From: Thermoplasmata archaeon
GTDB taxonomy: Archaea > Thermoplasmatota > E2 > UBA202 > JdFR-43
NCBI GenBank assembly: GCA_021161135.1
Contig: JAGHBD010000123.1
Coordinates: 1 to 10,782, forward strand
Reading direction: 5' to 3'
Length of the DNA: 10,782 bases
Shown: one piece after another, positions 1,956 through 10,782 of the stretch
How positions within the stretch are numbered: the stretch's first letter is position 1
How the letters are laid out: every line of letters starts with the position of its first letter
Notes under the pieces: model-generated
The model's input: the letters and a program-made list of their open reading frames with translations, nothing else
What the model was told of the DNA's origin: nothing
Database searches by the model: none
Translations under genes and position numbers: made by a program

Positions 1956-2234
1956 ATGAATGTGACAGATTTCATAAATTTGCCGGTTTATACAAATAAG
2001 GGAACATATGTGGGGGAGGTTAGAAATGTGCTCATTGATATAGAGGAAAGATGCATAGCAAAACTTATTTTAACAGAAACTAACAAAGAACTTGTTGAGG
2101 ATGGAATGGATGTTGCAGTGCCTTACAGATGGGTCTCTGCTGTAGGAGATATAATAATACTGAGTTACTTCCCTGAAAGAGTGGAAATTCCAAGAGAAGA
2201 GGAAGTTGAGGAAGAAGAGGGAGGAAAAAAATAA
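1956..2234 (+). CDS. PRC-barrel domain protein
   Basis: This 92-residue cytoplasmic protein is a single PRC-barrel. The pattern YTNKGTYVGEVRNVLIDIEE (about residues 11-30) followed by the beta strands RCIAKLIL and the closing DVAVPYRWVSAVGDIIILS (about 52-70) is characteristic of the small archaeal PRC proteins. The tail from about residue 77 is a run of glutamates ending in GGKK. I chose the ATG at 1956 because it starts exactly at the domain and follows a TATA box at the leaderless distance. An open frame continues further upstream but is not protein-like. Related small archaeal PRC-barrel proteins are known as SepF-interacting division factors (CdpB) in haloarchaea. Whether this one has that role is inference. 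It precedes the surface-protein genes by 39 bases on the same strand and may be the first gene of that operon. Confidence 0.8.
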   Translation: MNVTDFINLPVYTNKGTYVGEVRNVLIDIEERCIAKLILTETNKELVEDGMDVAVPYRWVSAVGDIIILSYFPERVEIPREEEVEEEEGGKK

Positions 2235-2240
2235 ATATAC
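2231..2240 (+). promoter_or_regulatory. weak candidate TATA box before the 2274 gene
   Basis: ATAAATATAC overlaps the PRC-barrel stop codon and lies about 38 bases before the next ATG. It would place a start site near 2262, just at the SD. Read-through from the PRC-barrel promoter is equally possible. Confidence 0.3.
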
Positions 2241-2262
2241 AATTCCTAATATCAGATTATCT

Positions 2263-2268
2263 GGAGGG
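2263..2268 (+). promoter_or_regulatory. Shine-Dalgarno site of the 2274 gene
   Basis: GGAGGG lies 5 bases before the ATG and fixes the start. This gene is therefore translated from a leadered or polycistronic message, unlike the PRC-barrel gene before it. Confidence 0.7.
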
Positions 2269-2273
2269 TTAAA

Positions 2274-3212
2274 ATGTTTAAAAGAACCGTTATATTGGCT
2301 TTAGCTGGTGTCGTCCTGCTTTTGTCTCAAAGCAGCCATGCAATATCATGGGGAAAAATAGATGCAACCGCAGATACATCCATTGCCTATGTCGAGAGAT
2401 ATGGACTGCAAGAAATAAGGCTAACAGTAGAATATCAGCCATATTATATTGGTTACATGCCAGCTTATGTAGAAGTTTCTGTTGAAGGCAGCCCGAGCTG
2501 GCTTACTGTTATTGCTTCTCCTCAGACATTTGTTCTCCAACCGAGGACTCCAAAACAGGTTACCCTTATAATGCAGGTTAAGGAGCATGATATCCAGGCA
2601 GGTCAGTCAGGTACAGTTGATGTCACAGTAAGAGGAAGAATAGTTGCAGGCGGAATGTTCCGAACAATTGATGAAGCAAAACTTTCCATAATAGTTGGCT
2701 ATAACCCCTATACGGAGATTGCAATAAGTGCTGTGCAGCCAATAGAGAGGACTTCTCCTGATAGAGAACTTCCTTTCATCATAAACATATACAATTATGG
2801 CAACTCCCGTGTAATTGTAGATTTAACAGCAGAAAAAGAACCTGGTGACTGGAAATATGTTATTAGTCCATCTACAGTCATTATAGAGCCCAAGCAACCC
2901 GGAGATGAAACATTTCCATATGCCACAGTAACCATTACTCTTACATCCCCACATGGCACAGCCATATCCTACCACAACGATTGGGAGGATTTCTCCATAA
3001 AAGCGAGGGCAAGGTCGGAGGCACCATATTATGAATATCAGGGAGGAAAATGGGTGCGCAGAACAGATGAAATACCGCTGATTACTCAATATGAAACAAC
3101 GGCATATTTCTTGGCGAAAAATAAGGGATTCTATGTGCCCGGCTTTGACGCCATTATAATGATTGCTGGACTTGCCATAGCTGGCTTACTGATTGCTAGG
3201 AAGAAAAAGTAA
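2274..3212 (+). CDS. secreted beta-sandwich surface protein with PGF-CTERM-like tail
   Basis: This 312-residue protein begins with a clear signal peptide (MFKRT, then a hydrophobic core, cleavage near SHA at about residue 23). The mature part is two beta-sandwich domains of about 110-130 residues each. The first (about 30-140) contains PSWLTVIASPQTFVLQP, and the second (about 145-275) contains GDWKYVISPSTVIIEPKQPG. The W-x-V-x-x-SP-x-x-x-x-L/I-x-P pattern is that of NEW3/COG1470-type domains found in archaeal envelope proteins. The C-terminus is YVPGFDA (PGF at 289-291), a hydrophobic helix and RKKK, matching the PGF-CTERM layout recognised by archaeosortase A, so lipid anchoring to the outer membrane face is plausible. 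Its stop is 1 base before the next start. No specific function is recognised. Confidence 0.75.
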   Translation: MFKRTVILALAGVVLLLSQSSHAISWGKIDATADTSIAYVERYGLQEIRLTVEYQPYYIGYMPAYVEVSVEGSPSWLTVIASPQTFVLQPRTPKQVTLIMQVKEHDIQAGQSGTVDVTVRGRIVAGGMFRTIDEAKLSIIVGYNPYTEIAISAVQPIERTSPDRELPFIINIYNYGNSRVIVDLTAEKEPGDWKYVISPSTVIIEPKQPGDETFPYATVTITLTSPHGTAISYHNDWEDFSIKARARSEAPYYEYQGGKWVRRTDEIPLITQYETTAYFLAKNKGFYVPGFDAIIMIAGLAIAGLLIARKKK

Positions 3213-3213
3213 C

Positions 3214-4743
3214 ATGCGAATTGCATGTCTCTCTCTCATACTTTTAATTTCCCTATCCTTCTTTACAAGCTATTTTGCTGTAGCTGAGCAGCCTCCAGAG
3301 TCTGACGAACCGATGCCTCAACTCGTTAATTTGCAAATTGACCCTATTGGTCCTACAACAGCGGAGATAGAACCTACAAAACAGTACACGTTTTATTTTA
3401 AATTTTACAATGGTGGATTTTTCAGCAAAAATTACTATCTCTTCTATGCAGAATTTGATGTGGAAGTCGAAGGCGAGGGATGGCAGGCATTTGTTTCCCC
3501 AACATGGACTTATTTCTGGCCAAACGAAACCAAAATTGGCAGGATTATTGTAACTGCATCAGCTCGTCCCTCAAATTATGCAACAATACATCTTCACGGT
3601 CGCATAAAAGATTTGCCAGGAAGAATTTTTAATTACTGGCATAAAGCCAATTTCACTTTCCAAGTTAAATTAGCACAGTATCATTCCTTTGATGTTGAAA
3701 TTAATAAAACATTTATCAAAGGGAGACAGGAAGAAATATACAGTCTGCCAATCAAAATAAAAAATCAGGGGAATTATGAGGACAGATTCTATATACGTAA
3801 AATATATGCCCCACCTGGCTGGAAGGTTGGTTTCTCACAGTCCCCAATAATCATACCACCAGATGAAGAGGCTTCCGTAAATCTATATTTTGCCATACCT
3901 CACGAAGGCGTATACGTGCAGGAAAGAACCCATTTCATACTTGTTGAGGTAAGGGCGGAGGGCGGAGGAGTGGCGAAAGCAGTGGCGGTAATTGTCTCTG
4001 TTAAAGGTTTTCATCTTACACTCGGTCAAATGGTGGCTTTGCTGAGCAGTATGCCCTCTCTTCTCATTCTTGCATTTGTTGGCATTGTTGCCCATCGTTA
4101 TAACAATCCCATAACATATTTACCAAAACCATGGAAAGAGGAGAAAGAAGAGCTGGCAAAATTGAAGGGAACTGCCAGAAGAAAAATGCTCAGAGAGATG
4201 AAAGACGAGTGGAAATCGGCGAAATATTACATGAAATGGAAAATGAGAGAGGAAAAAAGGCTTGAAGAGCTTAAAAGGAAAAAGAGCTTAAAACAGAGGA
4301 GGCTCGAAGAAAAAATTAAAAATGCATGGAAGGAAGGATGGGAGCCACTTTACAACAAATGGCAGGAGGAAAAGGAAAAGATAAAAACAGAATATGAAAA
4401 ACTAAGGAGAAATATTGAGAGAAAGCTTGCTGAAGCTAAACGGAAAGGGGTTTTGATAGATGTCTCTCTTCCAGAGGTAAAATATCCTCCAGAACCCAAA
4501 AAACCTGCAATGCCAAAGATTCCAGAATACAGGGTGGATGAACGACGCCTTACGCTTATTGAACCTGATGAAGTGGAAGTGGAAAGAATAATGATTCCTC
4601 TCGAGAGGAATAAGCTTTTAGTAAAGAGAGAAATTAGGAAAATTGAGGAAATTAGCAGAGAAATTATTGAGAATCTCAAAAAATCATTTGGGGCAATTGA
4701 AAGAAGAATAGATGCCGAAATAAGAAAAAAGAGTAGAAAATGA
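3214..4743 (+). CDS. membrane protein: secreted beta-sandwich domains, one TM helix, long cytoplasmic coiled coil
   Basis: The 509-residue product starts with a signal peptide (MRIACLSLILLISLSFF, ending near FAVAEQ). Two beta-sandwich domains follow. The second (about 155-265) is NEW3-like, with SLPIKIKNQGNYEDRFYI and APPGWKVGFSQSPIIIPPDE. A hydrophobic helix spans about residues 274-293. The remaining 215 residues are very rich in K, E and R and would be cytoplasmic. About 303-412 look like a long coiled coil, then comes a proline-rich linker (about 424-440, KYPPEPKKPAMPKIPEY), and a second charged helix runs to the end. I chose the ATG at 3214, 1 base after the previous stop, with AGGAAG upstream. 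A TTG at 3193 in the same frame is possible. The outer half has the same plan as the preceding protein, suggesting paralogues or partners. The ATGA overlap couples it to the next gene. The function is unknown. Confidence 0.75.
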   Translation: MRIACLSLILLISLSFFTSYFAVAEQPPESDEPMPQLVNLQIDPIGPTTAEIEPTKQYTFYFKFYNGGFFSKNYYLFYAEFDVEVEGEGWQAFVSPTWTYFWPNETKIGRIIVTASARPSNYATIHLHGRIKDLPGRIFNYWHKANFTFQVKLAQYHSFDVEINKTFIKGRQEEIYSLPIKIKNQGNYEDRFYIRKIYAPPGWKVGFSQSPIIIPPDEEASVNLYFAIPHEGVYVQERTHFILVEVRAEGGGVAKAVAVIVSVKGFHLTLGQMVALLSSMPSLLILAFVGIVAHRYNNPITYLPKPWKEEKEELAKLKGTARRKMLREMKDEWKSAKYYMKWKMREEKRLEELKRKKSLKQRRLEEKIKNAWKEGWEPLYNKWQEEKEKIKTEYEKLRRNIERKLAEAKRKGVLIDVSLPEVKYPPEPKKPAMPKIPEYRVDERRLTLIEPDEVEVERIMIPLERNKLLVKREIRKIEEISREIIENLKKSFGAIERRIDAEIRKKSRK

Positions 4744-5690
4744 AGAAGATATTTGCTGTTATAATTGCAATTCTACTTCTCAATATCTTTGCAGGATGTG
4801 TATTTAGGGAAAAAGGAGACAAGGATGGAGATGGGCTTCCAGATGAAAGAGAGAAAGAGGGATGGGAGGTAAATGTCATTTATCCAAACAGCAGGAATAT
4901 TACCACCTACACTGTAACATCTGATCCAACAAAGAAGGATACAGATGGAGATGGATTGAGTGATCTGGAAGAATTTTTATATCCTGGAGGAGCAACTGAT
5001 CCAACAAAGAAGGATACAGATGGAGATGGATTGAGTGATCTGGAAGAAAAGGAGTTAGGAAGTGATCCGAGAGATTGGAGAGGAGATATAGATATGGATG
5101 GTTTTATCGATTATGATGAGATTTTGTATTACGAAAAGCATAATATATCTCATGAAAAAATTATCCAGTATCTGCAAACAAAAGATGTGGATAAAGATGG
5201 TGTGCCAGATGGTTATGATATAGATCCTTTGAGAGATTTAAAAATAAAGGTATGGATTAAAAATATTATAATAACATCAGATATGGGAGATAGCGACGAA
5301 AATATTGAGCTTCGTATAAACATATCTACAGGAAATGAGTGGGCAGTTTTTCCTGAAGGAATTCCATTTTTGATAACGCCTGTTAATAAAAATGAGAGTA
5401 TAAATTTCAGCCATGTATTTGATTTAAGCGACTACGGTGTGCCGGGAAATGCCTCTCATCCTCTCATGATAGTTGTCGAAGACATAGATGAAGGTTTGGA
5501 AATTAATTTAAAGGATGGTATAGCTGGTTATGATTTAGTAAAGGTGTTTTCGAGCAATGTTTCTCCACCTTCACCTGTCTATGCGGAAAATATTAACATT
5601 TTCAAGGATTGCGACAAATATCATGAAAAGGGTGTGGATGGCGAGATATGGTTTGAAATAATTGATGCAAGTGTTGGTGTGGAGAGTTAA
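4740..5690 (+). CDS. lipoprotein with thrombospondin type 3 calcium repeats
   Basis: The 316-residue product has a lipoprotein signal peptide with lipobox FAGC (Cys20), so it should be tethered to the membrane outside the cell. Five TSP3/EF-hand-like loops follow: DKDGDGLPDE (27-36), DTDGDGLSDLEE (67-78 and again 92-103), DIDMDGFIDYDE (116-127) and DVDKDGVPD (149-157). Their spaced aspartates are the standard calcium ligands. Residues about 165-316 form a beta-rich domain, perhaps C2-like, ending near GEIWFEI. A similar EIWFDI occurs in the protease encoded next, so the two may share a module. The start ATG overlaps the previous stop (ATGA), indicating coupling. Two of the repeats are encoded by identical DNA, pointing to recent duplication. 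A structural or adhesive calcium-binding role is inferred. No enzyme motif is seen. Confidence 0.8.
   Translation: MKKIFAVIIAILLLNIFAGCVFREKGDKDGDGLPDEREKEGWEVNVIYPNSRNITTYTVTSDPTKKDTDGDGLSDLEEFLYPGGATDPTKKDTDGDGLSDLEEKELGSDPRDWRGDIDMDGFIDYDEILYYEKHNISHEKIIQYLQTKDVDKDGVPDGYDIDPLRDLKIKVWIKNIIITSDMGDSDENIELRINISTGNEWAVFPEGIPFLITPVNKNESINFSHVFDLSDYGVPGNASHPLMIVVEDIDEGLEINLKDGIAGYDLVKVFSSNVSPPSPVYAENINIFKDCDKYHEKGVDGEIWFEIIDASVGVES
4921..4973 (+). repeat. 53-bp exact direct repeat, copy 1
   Basis: This copy encodes DPTKKDTDGDGLSDLEE and is identical at every base to 4996-5048, at an offset of 75 bp (25 codons). The lack of even synonymous change indicates recent tandem duplication or gene conversion within the lipoprotein gene. 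Confidence 0.95.
4996..5048 (+). repeat. 53-bp exact direct repeat, copy 2
   Basis: Second copy of the repeat at 4921-4973. The two copies are separated by 22 bases encoding the FLYPGGA spacer. Because the offset is a multiple of three, gain or loss of one unit would keep the frame. Confidence 0.95.
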
Positions 5691-5693
5691 ATT

Positions 5694-5700
5694 CTTATAT
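5694..5700 (+). promoter_or_regulatory. TATA box, leaderless promoter of the metalloprotease gene
   Basis: CTTATAT lies just after the lipoprotein stop and is centred about 25 bases before the protease ATG. No SD precedes that ATG. This is the spacing expected for a leaderless transcript, so the protease can probably be expressed separately from the genes before it. Confidence 0.55.
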
Positions 5701-5721
5701 GATTAAACATTAGCATTTAAC

Positions 5722-7164
5722 ATGAAAAGGGGCTTTGCAACTATAATTTTGATTGCATTTATTCTACCTGGACTTGCCATAAATTTTAATGGGGTGTCAC
5801 CAAAGACCTCAAAAGCTGGGAAAGAGGTGGCAGTAATCGTGGAGGTTAAAAGGATACGGAGCTTGAATCTGCAAAATGAGAGTGTTTATTTAAGGGTGCT
5901 TATAAATGGGCAGGATAGTGTATGGTGGAGACAGATATTTAGAGGCATGGATATATGGCCGGAATGGGCTTTTGCATATAATGTTGTTGAATATGAAGAA
6001 AATAAGGAAATTCCCATCCAGATAGAGCTTTGGAAGAAAGGAATAATTGATCAGCCATGTGATATTTCCCCACAAAAAGGGAATTATCTTTATGGTAAAA
6101 CATTGACACTCTTTTACAACCTTACAAGCGGGGAATGGCATGGTGATGACTGGCTGGGAGATGCCAGCGGTTATGGACATGCAGGAGGACATGAAGATGG
6201 AAATTATGATGAAAATGATTATGAAATATGGTTCGATATATATGAGGAAGGAAGCACAGATGGATGGTGGGGTGGCAGCGATAGGATGACTCCATGGGAG
6301 AAGGCAAAATATGGGTTGAATGAAAGCATGGAGTATGGAAATGTTGATATAGATGGAGATGGCATTCCTTCTGACTGGGAAGATAAATATGGCTATAACC
6401 CTGTAGTGCCAGAAGACCACAGGCATCTCGATCCCGATAATGATGGATTAGACAATGTTGAGGAATATCTAACCAGTAAATGGCTATCTGACCCGTTTTG
6501 CCCAGATGTCTTCCTTGAAATTGATTTCATGGAAGCAAAATATCCATCGCAGAAGGATTATGTCCTTCCAAAGAAGAGCCAAGAAATGATTATCAGTGCT
6601 TTTACCAAACATAATATAATCCTCCATATTGATGATGGCTGCATGGGAGGAGGCGGTGATTTGATTCCATTTGATAGCAAGATGTATGGAGATGAATTGC
6701 GAGCTGCCAGGGAAAAATATTTCCTGAATGGAGATCCAAATAATTGGAGAAGGGGCGTTTTCCATTATGGCATAATGTGCTGCCAGATGGGCTGGGCTGG
6801 CAGGCCCGCAGGCGGAAGAATGTTTTACATAGATAGCTTTTGCGTTGGCGTTCAGTATGTGAGGAATTGGCTTTGGATGCTGAAATTGCAGGGGAGTGAT
6901 TATGAAACAGCTCTTGCCAGCGTGACAATGCACGAGCTCGGCCATACTCTTGGTCTTACTGATTTTGAGGGCATAGATAATGAAAGCACCCGTTTTCCAT
7001 GGAGCAAAGGATATTATATATGGAAAAACTATGAAAGCTGCATGAATTACAGGTATGTGTATAAGCTCGTCGATTATTCAGATGGAGATGATAGTGACCA
7101 TGACCAAAATGATTGGGAGGTTATAAAAGAAAGGTTGCCTCGCTTCCAGGGTGATTGGTGGTGA
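5722..7164 (+). CDS. secreted metzincin-type zinc metalloprotease with TSP3-like calcium module
   Basis: The 480-residue product has a signal peptide (about 1-19, MKRGFATIILIAFILPGLA). Residues about 35-180 form a beta-rich N-terminal domain ending in NDYEIWFDIYEE. A calcium-binding segment follows (DIDGDGIPSDWED from 209, then LDPDNDGLDNVEEY). The catalytic part begins near DVFLEIDFME. It carries HELGHTLGLTD at 404-414: His404 and His408 as zinc ligands, Glu405 as general base, Gly411, and Asp414 in the third-ligand position. A CMNY Met-turn has Met441, 27 residues later. HExxHxxGxxD plus a Met-turn defines the metzincin fold, and Asp as third ligand is known from snapalysin-type enzymes. 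Seven cysteines could form disulfides outside the cell. The substrate is unknown. The stop overlaps the next GTG start by 4 bases. Confidence 0.85.
   Translation: MKRGFATIILIAFILPGLAINFNGVSPKTSKAGKEVAVIVEVKRIRSLNLQNESVYLRVLINGQDSVWWRQIFRGMDIWPEWAFAYNVVEYEENKEIPIQIELWKKGIIDQPCDISPQKGNYLYGKTLTLFYNLTSGEWHGDDWLGDASGYGHAGGHEDGNYDENDYEIWFDIYEEGSTDGWWGGSDRMTPWEKAKYGLNESMEYGNVDIDGDGIPSDWEDKYGYNPVVPEDHRHLDPDNDGLDNVEEYLTSKWLSDPFCPDVFLEIDFMEAKYPSQKDYVLPKKSQEMIISAFTKHNIILHIDDGCMGGGGDLIPFDSKMYGDELRAAREKYFLNGDPNNWRRGVFHYGIMCCQMGWAGRPAGGRMFYIDSFCVGVQYVRNWLWMLKLQGSDYETALASVTMHELGHTLGLTDFEGIDNESTRFPWSKGYYIWKNYESCMNYRYVYKLVDYSDGDDSDHDQNDWEVIKERLPRFQGDWW
7150..7155 (+). promoter_or_regulatory. Shine-Dalgarno site of the Ig-like lipoprotein gene
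   Basis: GGTGAT, a direct complement to the 16S rRNA 3' end, lies 5 bases before the GTG at 7161 and inside the protease gene. It decides between three in-frame candidates (TTG 7155, GTG 7158, GTG 7161) in favour of 7161. Confidence 0.6.
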
Positions 7165-7823
7165 AGGAGAAAATATTTGTTTTGGTATTCGCTGCCCTCT
7201 TGCTTCTTGCTGGCTGCTTAGAGAAGAAAGATGAGACAGCACCAACCATTAAGATAAGTATAGAGGGAAAAGAAGGTGAGGAGAACTGGTATGTGAGTAG
7301 CGTAACCATAACATTTGAAGCCCATGATAATGAGAGTAGCGTAAAGGAACTGAAATACAGGATAAATGGTGATTTGTGGCGCGATTATGTGATGCCTGTC
7401 ACGCTAAGGAAAGATGGATTTTATTTCATTGAATATTATGCAAAAGATAGCAAAGGAAATGAAAATTATGGAAATATGACAATAAAAATAGATGCTACGC
7501 CTCCTTCAATAAATTTCACAAATTTCGAGCCAGGATACATATATTTCTGGGGAAAGAAAACTCCCACACCTCGCATACCTCGAGATACAATGATAATAGG
7601 AGATATTACAATTGAAGCATCAGCAGATGATAACCTTGCAGGGGTAAAGAAAGTGGAATTCTATATGAATGAAGGACTAGCCTTCGAAGACAATCAGCCA
7701 CCATATGAGTGGAGTATTAAAAATGCAATTGGAATATACAACATTACAGCCGTCGCTTTTGACTATGCAGGCAACTATGCTTCGATAACCATACCAGAAG
7801 TGCAAATTATAAATATACTTTAA
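7161..7823 (+). CDS. lipoprotein with two Ig-like beta-sandwich domains
   Basis: From the GTG at 7161 the product is 220 residues. The start overlaps the protease stop (GTGA). The signal peptide ends in the lipobox LAGC (Cys19), so the protein should be lipid-anchored outside the cell. Residues about 27-115 contain VTITFEAHDNESSVKELKYR and YYAKDSKGNENYG, typical of OmpL47/Ig-like domains found in multidomain surface proteins. Residues about 116-215 contain IEASADDNLAGVKKVEFYMN and YNITAVAFDYAGN, a second Ig-like unit that recalls bacterial Big-type domains. Such domains bind carbohydrate or protein or act as spacers, and no catalytic residues are visible. Coupling to the protease suggests a partner, docking factor or substrate presenter for it, which is inference. 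The gene ends in a 4-bp tail-to-tail overlap with the PurP-like gene. Confidence 0.8.
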   Translation: MKEKIFVLVFAALLLLAGCLEKKDETAPTIKISIEGKEGEENWYVSSVTITFEAHDNESSVKELKYRINGDLWRDYVMPVTLRKDGFYFIEYYAKDSKGNENYGNMTIKIDATPPSINFTNFEPGYIYFWGKKTPTPRIPRDTMIIGDITIEASADDNLAGVKKVEFYMNEGLAFEDNQPPYEWSIKNAIGIYNITAVAFDYAGNYASITIPEVQIINIL

Positions 7824-8962
7824 CTCACAATCTTCTCCAACTCATCCCTCTCTATAGCCATCTTCAGTTCGAGAGCCATTCTCCTGCCTGTGGACATGTT
7901 GCATCTCCATAAAGAGTTACCATATGGATGTCCGACCCACATATGAACATTTGTTCCCCCTCCTATGCGAGGTGCAACGTCATATATATAAAAATTTAAA
8001 TCCTTATCCACACACGTTTGTAAACAGAAAGGGCCGATTATTCCATAATCATAATGTTTTTTGCATGCTTCAACAAATTTTTCGGCTAAGTTAAATGCCT
8101 TTTCAAGCAACGACTCTCGCAACGTAGCCATATTATGTCCGCATACCGTGTATTCTGGAATCTTCTGCTTTTCTGGCAAATTAAGCTGTTGCTCTGCTGG
8201 AAGGCGCACATGCCCATCAAGGCTTGTTTCAAATCGCCAGTCAATGCCAAGTAATTCAATCTGTTCCAATATCGGAGAATAGAAGAAGTCCAAATTGAAG
8301 ACAGGGCCAATAATATATCTTTCTATTCTGGCCCTCTCTAAATCTTCTTCAGTTATAACACCCTGTTTTATCAGCTTCTCTGCTTTTTCCTTATATTCTT
8401 CATATGATGCGCAGGTAAAGAAACCTCGCTCTAATTTTTTGACTGCATGGTGCAGCTTTACTATGCACAATTCATCTATATCCTCTGGATTCTCTATTTT
8501 CTCTGGAAAGGGCAAACCCTCTTTTTCAAGCAGCCAGTAATAATCTCTCTTCTCCCCTCTCTCCTCCATTCTTAGAAGGCAGCGGGAGCCGAACATGGGC
8601 ACATAAAAATTATTTTCTATTTCATCCAAGCTACAATATGAGGTAAATGAACGATTTGGAATGAAAATAGCGTTTTCCTCTTTCAATCTTGTCTGATTCT
8701 CTTTTTTAAGTATTTCATCAAATCTGTCAAATATCCACGTTTCATCAACATATCCTATGCTCCTCTCGCCAATTTTTTTACTCCTGAAATAAATATCATA
8801 TGTTTTGTGCCTTCCTCTCTGGCATATTGCGAGAGTGGGAAAACCCTCCTCCTTTGCACCATCAAATGTATCTAAGGCAGAATGAGAAGCAATGGCTGCG
8901 ACTTTTATTTTTTTGTAGTCATAATTTTCAAGGAGATTCCATATTTCTTTTCTTTCAATCAT
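7820..8962 (-). CDS. PurP-family ATP-grasp ligase (FAICAR synthetase or paralogue)
   Basis: This 380-residue cytoplasmic protein is a full-length member of the archaeal PurP family. PurP makes FAICAR from AICAR, formate and ATP in purine synthesis. The N-terminal domain has the signature SHSALD (26-31) with His27 and GAKEEGFPTLAICQRGR (35-51). It is followed by IPNRSFTSYC (101-110), VPMFGSRCLLR, IIGPVFNLDFFYSP, ELLGIDWRFE and the C-terminal IIGPFCLQ (308-315) and APRIGGGTN (330-338). The ATP-grasp glycine loop, usually like GA-x-GG-x-GYF, reads HHAVKKLERGFF (171-182) and lacks the double glycine, as might be expected of a divergent paralogue. I prefer the ATG at 8962 because it matches the family's start and lies 26 bases from a TATA box. 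An ATG at 8980 would add six residues. The preceding gene ends 33 bases upstream. Confidence 0.8.
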   Translation of the reverse strand: MIERKEIWNLLENYDYKKIKVAAIASHSALDTFDGAKEEGFPTLAICQRGRHKTYDIYFRSKKIGERSIGYVDETWIFDRFDEILKKENQTRLKEENAIFIPNRSFTSYCSLDEIENNFYVPMFGSRCLLRMEERGEKRDYYWLLEKEGLPFPEKIENPEDIDELCIVKLHHAVKKLERGFFTCASYEEYKEKAEKLIKQGVITEEDLERARIERYIIGPVFNLDFFYSPILEQIELLGIDWRFETSLDGHVRLPAEQQLNLPEKQKIPEYTVCGHNMATLRESLLEKAFNLAEKFVEACKKHYDYGIIGPFCLQTCVDKDLNFYIYDVAPRIGGGTNVHMWVGHPYGNSLWRCNMSTGRRMALELKMAIERDELEKIVS

Positions 8963-8983
8963 ATAAAGAAGTAATAGCACGAA

Positions 8984-8995: not shown

Positions 8996-10561
8996 TTAAT
9001 TTTGCTGAATAAATTTTGCAAGTAATAAATCCCAATGATTCATTATCCATATGTTCAAAATAAGTCTATCAAGATAAATAGCTGAAACGTGTTTATCATT
9101 GTTTATAAACCAGTTATTGCAAAATAAATTGTAATAGCCATTTTCGATATAAATCCCAAATTCATTATTATGTATGACATTGCCAGCTATTAAATTAAAT
9201 AAGCTTCCTTTGTACTTTCCAGTTATAAAAATTCCATACTTGCTATAGCCAATATTATTTTTTCTTATCACATTTAAATCCGAGCTTGTCATCCAAATGG
9301 CTTCTTTCGTCATATTAAAAATAGTATTATTGATTATTTTGTTCATTTCTCCGCTCATCAATATTCCTTCTTTTCCATGTGTAATAATGTTTCCTTTAAC
9401 ATAATTAATATTGCTTGCACGTAAGTGGATACCATAAGAGATATTTTTTATAGCATTATCAGCAACTTCATTATTCATTCCATACCATAAAATTATAGCA
9501 TCGTCGCTATTTGAGTAATAATTTTTTGTAATCTGGTTATTGTTCGAGTTGTAAAGGAAAACGCTGCTTCCACATTTAAGGAAAGTATTGTTAAAAATGT
9601 TGCAGTTTTTAGTGCTTAAAAGCTCAATGCCAATTGAAGTATAGGATATGTTTTGATGGCATACTGTAATATTATTGCAATTAACCAGTATAATTTGTCC
9701 CGCCTCCTTTTCTATAATTTCGTCAGAATGTCCCTCCAAATATAGCAAGGGTTTACCATTAACTATATTATCAGCTATTTCATTATGAAAAGAATCTACA
9801 ATAATCCCGCATCGGTAAAAAGAATTATTGAAAACTGAATTGTTAGAAGAAGATAGGTATATTCCTATTTCGTTATCGGAAAGATTGTTATTTTTTATTA
9901 TATTATCATACCCAATCCAAATTGTTATTCCCCCGGTTTCATGATTAGAGATTTTATTATCAAAAATTTTATTGTGGCTCGCATTCATAAGTATTATTCC
10001 TGCCTCATTTGAATCAATAAAATTACTCGCTATAACATTATTATGGGAATAATAAATGTCGATAGCCCCTCCATCAATCGAGGTTATGCTATTATATAAA
10101 ATACGGTTGTTGTGAGAATGCTCAAGATATATTCCTTCCCAACCATTTTTTGTGATTATGTTATGGAAAATATAATTGTAATCGGAATATACATAAATGC
10201 CTCCATATTCTCCATTTTGGATTGTAAAGTTTTCAATAGTTACGCCTTCAGCAGTAATATTTATTACAACCCAACCTCCTTTTCCATCTATTATAGTAGT
10301 ATTTCTGTTCTCACCTATGAGGGCTATTGATTTATCTACATTTATACTCTCATAATAGGGCGAGGAGTCATCGTAAACAAAAATTGTATCTCCATCTTCT
10401 GCATCATTTATTGCATCTTGAATTTTCGTGTAGTTATTTGGACCAGAGCCACCAACATATAATACTCTTCCATCATGACATGAAATAAACTTTTCTGTAT
10501 TGGCTGGAAACACGAAAAGAAATAGTATAGATGTGATACCAGCTACTACTTTCCTATCCAT
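8996..10561 (-). CDS. secreted right-handed beta-helix protein (NosD/CASH type)
   Basis: The 521-residue product has a signal peptide (MDRKVVAGITSILFLFVFPA). A pectin-lyase-like entry segment follows (YTKIQDAINDAEDGDTIFVY at 44-63, then SINVDKSIALIGENRNTTII). From about residue 100 to 480 there are many coils of about 20-24 residues built on N-x-I-x-x-N-x-I and GI-x-I/L patterns, such as HNKIFDNKIS and NGYYNLFCNNWF. This is the parallel beta-helix of NosD and other surface carbohydrate-acting or adhesin proteins. No copper site or NosD operon partner is present, so a general surface beta-helix is the safer name. The usual closing N-x-W-x-x-x-x-GNYWSDY segment is missing: the frame changes character after NIW near residue 505 and stops soon after, suggesting a truncated or frameshifted end. 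The ATG at 10573 is an alternative start, but it would lie before the expected transcription start. Confidence 0.8.
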   Translation of the reverse strand: MDRKVVAGITSILFLFVFPANTEKFISCHDGRVLYVGGSGPNNYTKIQDAINDAEDGDTIFVYDDSSPYYESINVDKSIALIGENRNTTIIDGKGGWVVINITAEGVTIENFTIQNGEYGGIYVYSDYNYIFHNIITKNGWEGIYLEHSHNNRILYNSITSIDGGAIDIYYSHNNVIASNFIDSNEAGIILMNASHNKIFDNKISNHETGGITIWIGYDNIIKNNNLSDNEIGIYLSSSNNSVFNNSFYRCGIIVDSFHNEIADNIVNGKPLLYLEGHSDEIIEKEAGQIILVNCNNITVCHQNISYTSIGIELLSTKNCNIFNNTFLKCGSSVFLYNSNNNQITKNYYSNSDDAIILWYGMNNEVADNAIKNISYGIHLRASNINYVKGNIITHGKEGILMSGEMNKIINNTIFNMTKEAIWMTSSDLNVIRKNNIGYSKYGIFITGKYKGSLFNLIAGNVIHNNEFGIYIENGYYNLFCNNWFINNDKHVSAIYLDRLILNIWIMNHWDLLLAKFIQQN

Positions 10562-10590
10562 TTTAACATTCATAAAATGGATGTTAAAAT
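10560..10590. repeat. inverted repeat over the start of the beta-helix gene
   Basis: ATTTTAACAT (10560-10569) is the exact complement of ATGTTAAAAT (10581-10590). Including the inner bases with one G-T wobble, a 13-bp stem closes on a 5-base loop. It lies between the TATA box and the preferred ATG of the beta-helix gene, where a repressor or an RNA hairpin could act. Confidence 0.6.
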
Positions 10591-10595
10591 ATAAA
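10588..10595 (-). promoter_or_regulatory. TATA box of the beta-helix gene
   Basis: The minus strand reads TTTATATT, centred about 30 bases before the ATG at 10561 and only about 18 before the ATG at 10573. Transcription would start near 10562-10568, which favours the inner ATG and a near-leaderless message. Confidence 0.5.
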
Positions 10596-10603
10596 ATTTT
10601 TGC

Positions 10604-10782
10604 TTAGATTGAGGTTGTCGAAAAAATCAGAATGAAGGAAGAAATTGCCATGTATGTGTTTATGTTATGAACAATTGCCATGGCAATTATGTGTTTCATT
10701 CTCATTGACTTTTTCTTATATCTCGTGAATAACAATCTCCTCGTTTCCAATCCTCCAAATATTCCTTCTATTACTCCTCTGA
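10604..10782 (-). mobile_element. C-terminal part of a DDE transposase (IS5-like), cut by the window edge
   Basis: The last 58 codons of a transposase are visible, with the N-terminal part lying beyond the right edge. The stretch RGVIEGIFGGLETRRLL near the start has the V-x-E-x-x-F-x-x-L-x-x-R layout that carries the last catalytic glutamate of IS5/IS4-type DDE transposases. It is followed by the basic RYKKKSMRMKH and the hydrophobic C-terminal helix IIAMAIVHNINTYM common in that position. The visible part has no stop or frameshift, so this copy may be intact. The stop lies just past a candidate terminal inverted repeat. The exact IS family is uncertain. Confidence 0.7.
10611..10628. repeat. 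candidate IS terminal inverted repeat
   Basis: GAGGTTGTCGAAAAAATC has the look of an IS5-type terminal repeat (GAG, then TTGTCG, then an A run) and lies at the very end of the transposase frame. If it is the element's end, the stop codon TAA is supplied by flanking DNA. The partner repeat would lie outside the window, so this is a guess from one side only. Confidence 0.35.

Follow-up and report, generated by a model that had tools for sequence, protein, structure and literature searches.

The window analysed here, 10,782 nucleotides in length, is the entire contig JAGHBD010000123.1 of a Thermoplasmata archaeon whose assembly (GCA_021161135.1; genome G000 below) amounts to 1.35 Mb and is 87% complete. 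We verified six open reading frames in it, all on the forward strand and packed with junctions of exactly 39, 1, -4, 31 and -4 bases; a divergent MATE transporter gene lies upstream, and purP and a gene for a NosD-like beta-helix protein lie downstream on the opposite strand. An earlier note on this DNA, made from the sequence alone, read the six genes as a calcium-dependent surface complex whose exported members are anchored in different ways. Its layout and junction lengths reproduce exactly, three of its domain calls (PRC barrel in gene 1, TSP3 in gene 4 and an Ig-like domain, here Big_7, in gene 6) score above their cut-offs, and the varied anchoring is supported, with a PGF motif plus helix in gene 2, a helix in gene 3, lipobox-like motifs in genes 4 and 6 and secretion of gene 5. 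Our analysis shifts the reading from a single six-gene complex to a three-gene module found throughout the class, which is probably tied to the divisome and has a protease unit as its neighbour.

Gene 1 (1956-2234) encodes a predicted cytoplasmic PRC-barrel protein of 92 residues. A TATA-like element at 1914-1929, CATAATTATTTAAAAT, ends 26 bases before it; of 17 family loci, 15 have CATAAYTATTTAAA ahead of gene 1 and the other two have close variants, and the window holds one match to the element where 0.06 would be expected with one mismatch allowed. Gene 2 (2274-3212) encodes an exported Ig-like protein with a PGF motif, a membrane helix and RKKK at its C terminus. The product of gene 3 (3214-4743) is also an exported Ig-like protein, with one predicted membrane helix followed by a cytoplasmic tail.

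These three genes are inherited together. Our comparisons drew on samples of 22 genomes of the order, 80 of the class and 389 of the phylum. Within the order, gene 1 occurs in 20 of 22 genomes, gene 2 in 20 and gene 3 in 19; G018 and G021, about 70% complete, are without all three, and in G001 the place of gene 3 reads as N. We refer to a gene-1-type PRC gene as PRC-A when it scores above 100 bits with a profile built here, and counted gene 2 as adjacent when a homologue lay on the same strand at most 2.5 kilobases (kb) downstream. The class yielded 64 PRC-A loci, two of which (L089 and L104) stop at a contig edge. A gene 2 homologue follows in 57 of the 62 loci with downstream room, and 50 of those 57 also carry a homologue of gene 3; among the seven that do not, L083, L091, L092 and L094 have less than 1.6 kb of contig left and L029 is unreadable at that place. 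The trio is kept across families and the surrounding genes vary. As a control, we examined 14 loci of the other PRC gene that these genomes carry (PRC-B, about 80-90 residues), and none has a gene 2 or gene 3 homologue as neighbour. We conclude firmly that genes 1-3 are a conserved, class-wide module whose adjacency goes far beyond chance. In the literature covered, which omits most subscription papers and both primary CdpB papers, we recognised no published account of the pairing of a PRC-barrel gene and these surface genes.

Gene 1 matches the PRC barrel (PF05239) at 52.6 bits against a cut-off of 21.2 and is modelled with a barrel fold (predicted local distance difference test, pLDDT, 87.3). 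By sequence and by model its closest solved relatives are CdpB1 and CdpB2 (8QZO, 8ONW), far nearer than the next solved PRC barrel. CdpB-type, as a counterpart of either CdpB1 or CdpB2, is thus the closest assignment that the sequence and the model suggest; the earlier note did not place gene 1 as a divisome protein of this type. The CdpB1/CdpB2 systems, studied in H. volcanii and solved from A. fulgidus, share with the present one the PRC-barrel fold, two complementary PRC genes per genome, and SepF and FtsZ encoded in the genome. At least two PRC matches are found in 19 of the 22 genomes of the order. Compared with the solved heterodimer, PRC-B of the window's genome (G000:C148) matches the partner opposite to that of gene 1, which is the other domain in 8QZO and the other chain in 8ONW, and the same genome encodes a SepF scoring over its cut-off and two FtsZ proteins. 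In contrast to those systems, gene 1 is co-inherited here with two Ig-like surface genes, which is not the case in the 20 loci examined outside the class. At PRC-B loci (L116-L129, for example L122) a Cdc48-type ATPase gene often adjoins, and an Orc1/Cdc6 gene does so in several class genomes. Outside the class, PRC-A adjoins a metallo-beta-lactamase-fold gene in L136, L137, L139 and L140 (in L137 by position and size only), and the neighbour in L136 is RNase Z by NCBIfam.

Gene 3 reaches the choice-of-anchor T family (NCBIfam NF041740) at 70.5 bits, at the edge of the cut-off of 70, and gene 2, which is related, lies under it at 56.2 bits. Members of this family likewise carry varied C-terminal anchors; however, only 4 of the 80 class genomes reach the cut-off, and a link to a PRC-barrel gene was not seen in the family entry. 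A protein search returned 28 homologues, either nameless or labelled 'hypothetical protein'. The PGF motif of gene 2 was read by eye, with the Loki-CTERM profile scoring 16.3 bits, below its cut-off of 19.9; an archaeosortase-family gene is present in all 26 genomes searched. The AlphaFold2 model of gene 3 (24 rows; pLDDT 90.0; predicted template-modelling score, pTM, 0.43) contains a signal helix, two Ig-like domains at about residues 40-133 and 143-266, a membrane helix at residues 270-297 (4021-4104) and a tail of residues 298-509 (4105-4740), in which a long helix spans 320-410 and another 453-508. The relative placement of the domains in this model is unreliable because the pTM is low. 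The ectodomain resembles many surface or scaffold Ig domains, including those of the S-layer protein SbsC and of RbmA. The tail is basic, with a net charge of +22 (counting K, R, D and E), and bears KPW at 4126-4134 and EWKSA at 4207-4221; among 50 gene 3 tails scanned, 43 have [KR][PM]W and 38 have E[YW]xS[AS]. The model thus predicts a protein that crosses the membrane once and places its basic tail in the cytoplasm, in keeping with the suggestion of the earlier note that gene 3 is a link to the cell interior. An unlinked gene 3 relative of 643 residues in the same genome (L130, G000:C17, 1920-3851) has NEW3/CARDB-like domains flanking a membrane helix, and open frames of this family, about 650 residues long, occur in many genomes of the order.

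Gene 4 (4740-5690) encodes a lipoprotein with TSP3-type calcium-binding repeats (TSP3_bac, 33.6 bits against a cut-off of 25); its lipobox-like FAGC, like the LAGC of gene 6, was read by eye. Seven genomes of the family, which represent six genera and include this one, have a readable gene 4 homologue after gene 3, and its place reads as N in nine further family genomes. The earlier note had proposed that four or more genes kept in the same order outside this genus would support a system, and genes 1-4 are indeed readable in that order in five other genera.

Gene 5 (5722-7164) encodes a secreted zinc-protease-like protein, whose HELGHTLG (6931-6954) and SCMNY (7036-7050) are kept in relatives. 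In an alignment of 23 family members, which also brought out calcium-loop-like motifs at 6346-6393 and 6430-6453, HExxH is present in all 23, HExxHxxG in 22 (not in L090) and MNY in 22 (L058 is cut). With metzincins such as M10 and Mep72-like enzymes it shares HExxHxxG and a Met-turn-like MNY. It differs from them at the third zinc ligand, where the expected D or H of HExxHxxGxx[HD] is found in only 6 of 23 members (the window has D), and the M10 and Mep72 profiles match no more than weakly. A few residues beyond the usual site, 20 of 23 members have GxDN, which may serve as an alternative third ligand. Gene 6 (7161-7823, with a GTG start at 7161) encodes an Ig-like lipoprotein, the partner of gene 5, with matches to Big_7 (59.4 bits; cut-off 24.1) and to an OmpL47-type domain (80.6; cut-off 40).

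Gene 6 follows gene 5 in all 12 family loci with room, and purP, an IMP synthesis gene at 7820-8980 of the window, comes next in convergent orientation in 9 of 11. The place of the pair in the genome is less constant. Of the 16 family genomes that allow a test, eight have gene 5 directly after the gene 4 place (G000, G001, G002, G003, G005, G008, G012 and G013); in G004, G009, G010, G011 and G015 it is found elsewhere, at 57-76% identity, and G006, G014 and G016 have only weaker matches, of at most 50% identity. G007, whose contig stops too early, stands outside this count. In one locus of the sister family (L052) gene 5 is followed instead by a gene-4-like gene, and genomes generally carry several gene 5 paralogues. 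A promoter-like element, GTTAAATTCTTATA, at 5686-5699, starts 36 bases before gene 5 inside the 31-base junction; 0.03 matches would be expected in the window with one mismatch allowed. An exact GTTAAATNCTTATA begins 34-36 bases upstream of the gene 5 start both here and in eight other genomes, five of which have gene 5 at a site apart from the trio. Genes 5-6 are probably a separate transcription unit with its own predicted promoter. One gene 5 paralogue of the window's genome (L068, G000:C108, 5630-7111) lies about 3.4 kb from SepF, at 10438-10659 of that contig, and a gene 5 relative in L090 (G044:C1, 5579-7129) lies about 3.7 kb downstream of a PRC-A that has no adjoining gene 2.

How archaea join the FtsZ ring inside the cell to the coat outside is, to our knowledge, largely open, and the class-wide trio offers small, named and testable candidates for such a link. 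In the arrangement we propose, the CdpB-type protein encoded by gene 1 would reside in the cytoplasm, co-inherited with the exported Ig-like genes 2 and 3; gene 2 would be held at the membrane by its C-terminal helix, and gene 3 would cross the membrane once, with its basic and largely helical tail inside. Through its KPW...E[YW]xSA region this tail could dock on the division ring at its PRC-barrel/SepF/FtsZ layer, and outside the membrane the Ig-like ectodomains of genes 3 and 2 would extend the link to the surface coat as an envelope-spanning arm of the divisome. Gene 4, a lipoprotein of calcium-binding type, would be a family-level addition beside gene 3, and the unit of genes 5-6, a neighbour of the module in eight of the 16 family genomes that allow a test, could trim surface proteins. 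That genes 1-3 span the envelope as a partner of the FtsZ/SepF/CdpB divisome, with such family-level additions and with the docking and division role supposed here, has in our judgement a little less than an even chance. We advance only tentatively the idea that this is an undescribed transmembrane branch of the divisome, in which the tail of gene 3 ties the CdpB/SepF/FtsZ layer to outer Ig-like proteins. If so, the coat would be drawn in or remodelled along with the ring, and in some lineages a surface protease unit would stand next to this branch. The trio would also give its surface proteins, which are at most family-named in the databases searched, a first cellular context. The haloarchaeal divisome includes a membrane protein, CdpA, which bears its own PRC-type domain. 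A like role for gene 3 would make it a membrane-spanning divisome part in an archaeon; unlike CdpA, gene 3 has no PRC-type domain. CdpA is mentioned in the review PMC12186497.

Several observations weigh against tying the trio to division. Gene 2 is not beside PRC-A in five testable class loci (L079, L082, L090, L100 and L108), four of which belong to families f7-f9; in G027, of f8, genes 2 and 3 occur as a pair on a different contig (L063). There is enough contig downstream in L086 and L097, yet no recognised gene 3. The PRC-A profile finds a match in 325 of the 389 phylum genomes, of which 65 belong to the class. From the roughly 260 matching genomes outside it, 20 PRC-A loci were examined, and in none is PRC-A followed on its own strand by gene 2 or gene 3 (in L138 a 1410-residue open reading frame, part of it gene-2-like, runs convergently, and some N occurs in L139 and L145). 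PRC-A therefore functions there without genes 2 and 3, and among the loci examined the coupling is restricted to the class. Gene 1 and gene 2 may each be served by a promoter; an AT-rich element at 2228-2242, picked out by eye from aligned family gene 1-2 gaps, is a weak candidate for the second. KPW is absent from 7 of the 50 tails (L063, L077, L078, L084, L085, L102 and L110), among them all four f10 tails and two tails cut at a contig end. Linkage to ftsZ is scarce as well. In G034 (L076) the trio continues on one strand into aIF2-beta, an RHH gene and ftsZ, and among 20 RHH-ftsZ loci examined this is the only one that has the trio as its immediate neighbour. Within a single genus, three genomes (G033, G038 and G069) carry the trio and ftsZ on one contig, 15-18 kb apart; the distance from PRC-A is about 142 kb or more in G044 and about 810 kb, to the only ftsZ found, in the single contig of G045, and the ftsZ loci of the window's own genome have no trio beside them. 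Since this linkage is rare, a division role rests mainly on the resemblance of gene 1 to CdpB1/CdpB2 and on published work on PRC-barrel proteins (PMC12186497, PMC12134362).

The scarcity of ftsZ linkage is also what one would expect of a general envelope scaffold unconnected with division, in which the PRC-barrel protein is a cytoplasmic adaptor that keeps the gene 3 tail in place along the membrane and both surface genes encode coat proteins. The exported Ig-like sandwiches, the likeness of the gene 3 ectodomain to SbsC, RbmA and other surface domains, and the extra gene 2 or gene 3 copies that adjoin the trio (for example in L060, L062, L065, L067 and L081) suit this explanation, but gene 1 is much nearer to CdpB1/CdpB2 than to the next solved PRC barrel, and genes for both CdpB-type partners, for SepF and for FtsZ are present. 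We regard the scaffold as a credible possibility, somewhat doubtful on balance. The complex proposed in the earlier note, with gene 6 presenting the gene 5 protease and gene 3 tying it to the interior, draws on the common strand, the short gaps, the TSP3-type motifs in genes 4 and 5 and the eight genomes with genes 5-6 in place, yet in the other eight of the 16 they are not there, so that the six do not stay together as one unit. Genes 5-6 pair with each other, mostly beside purP, behind a promoter-like element of their own that is kept even away from the trio, and among the loci examined genes 4-6 stand beside the trio only at family level, whereas the trio itself is class-wide; we consider a single six-gene complex improbable. 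A third explanation, that the genes share a locus for joint expression and their products make no physical contact, could accommodate the possible separate promoters of genes 1 and 2 and the PRC-A genes that stand without surface genes outside the class. It sits poorly with same-strand adjacency in 57 of 62 loci, across families and despite changing flanks, and with a conserved gene 3 tail motif on the PRC side of the membrane, and we give it little credence.

The RHH gene itself precedes ftsZ in 20 of 21 loci examined (L155, L157-L174 and L076), with aIF2-beta in front of it in many.
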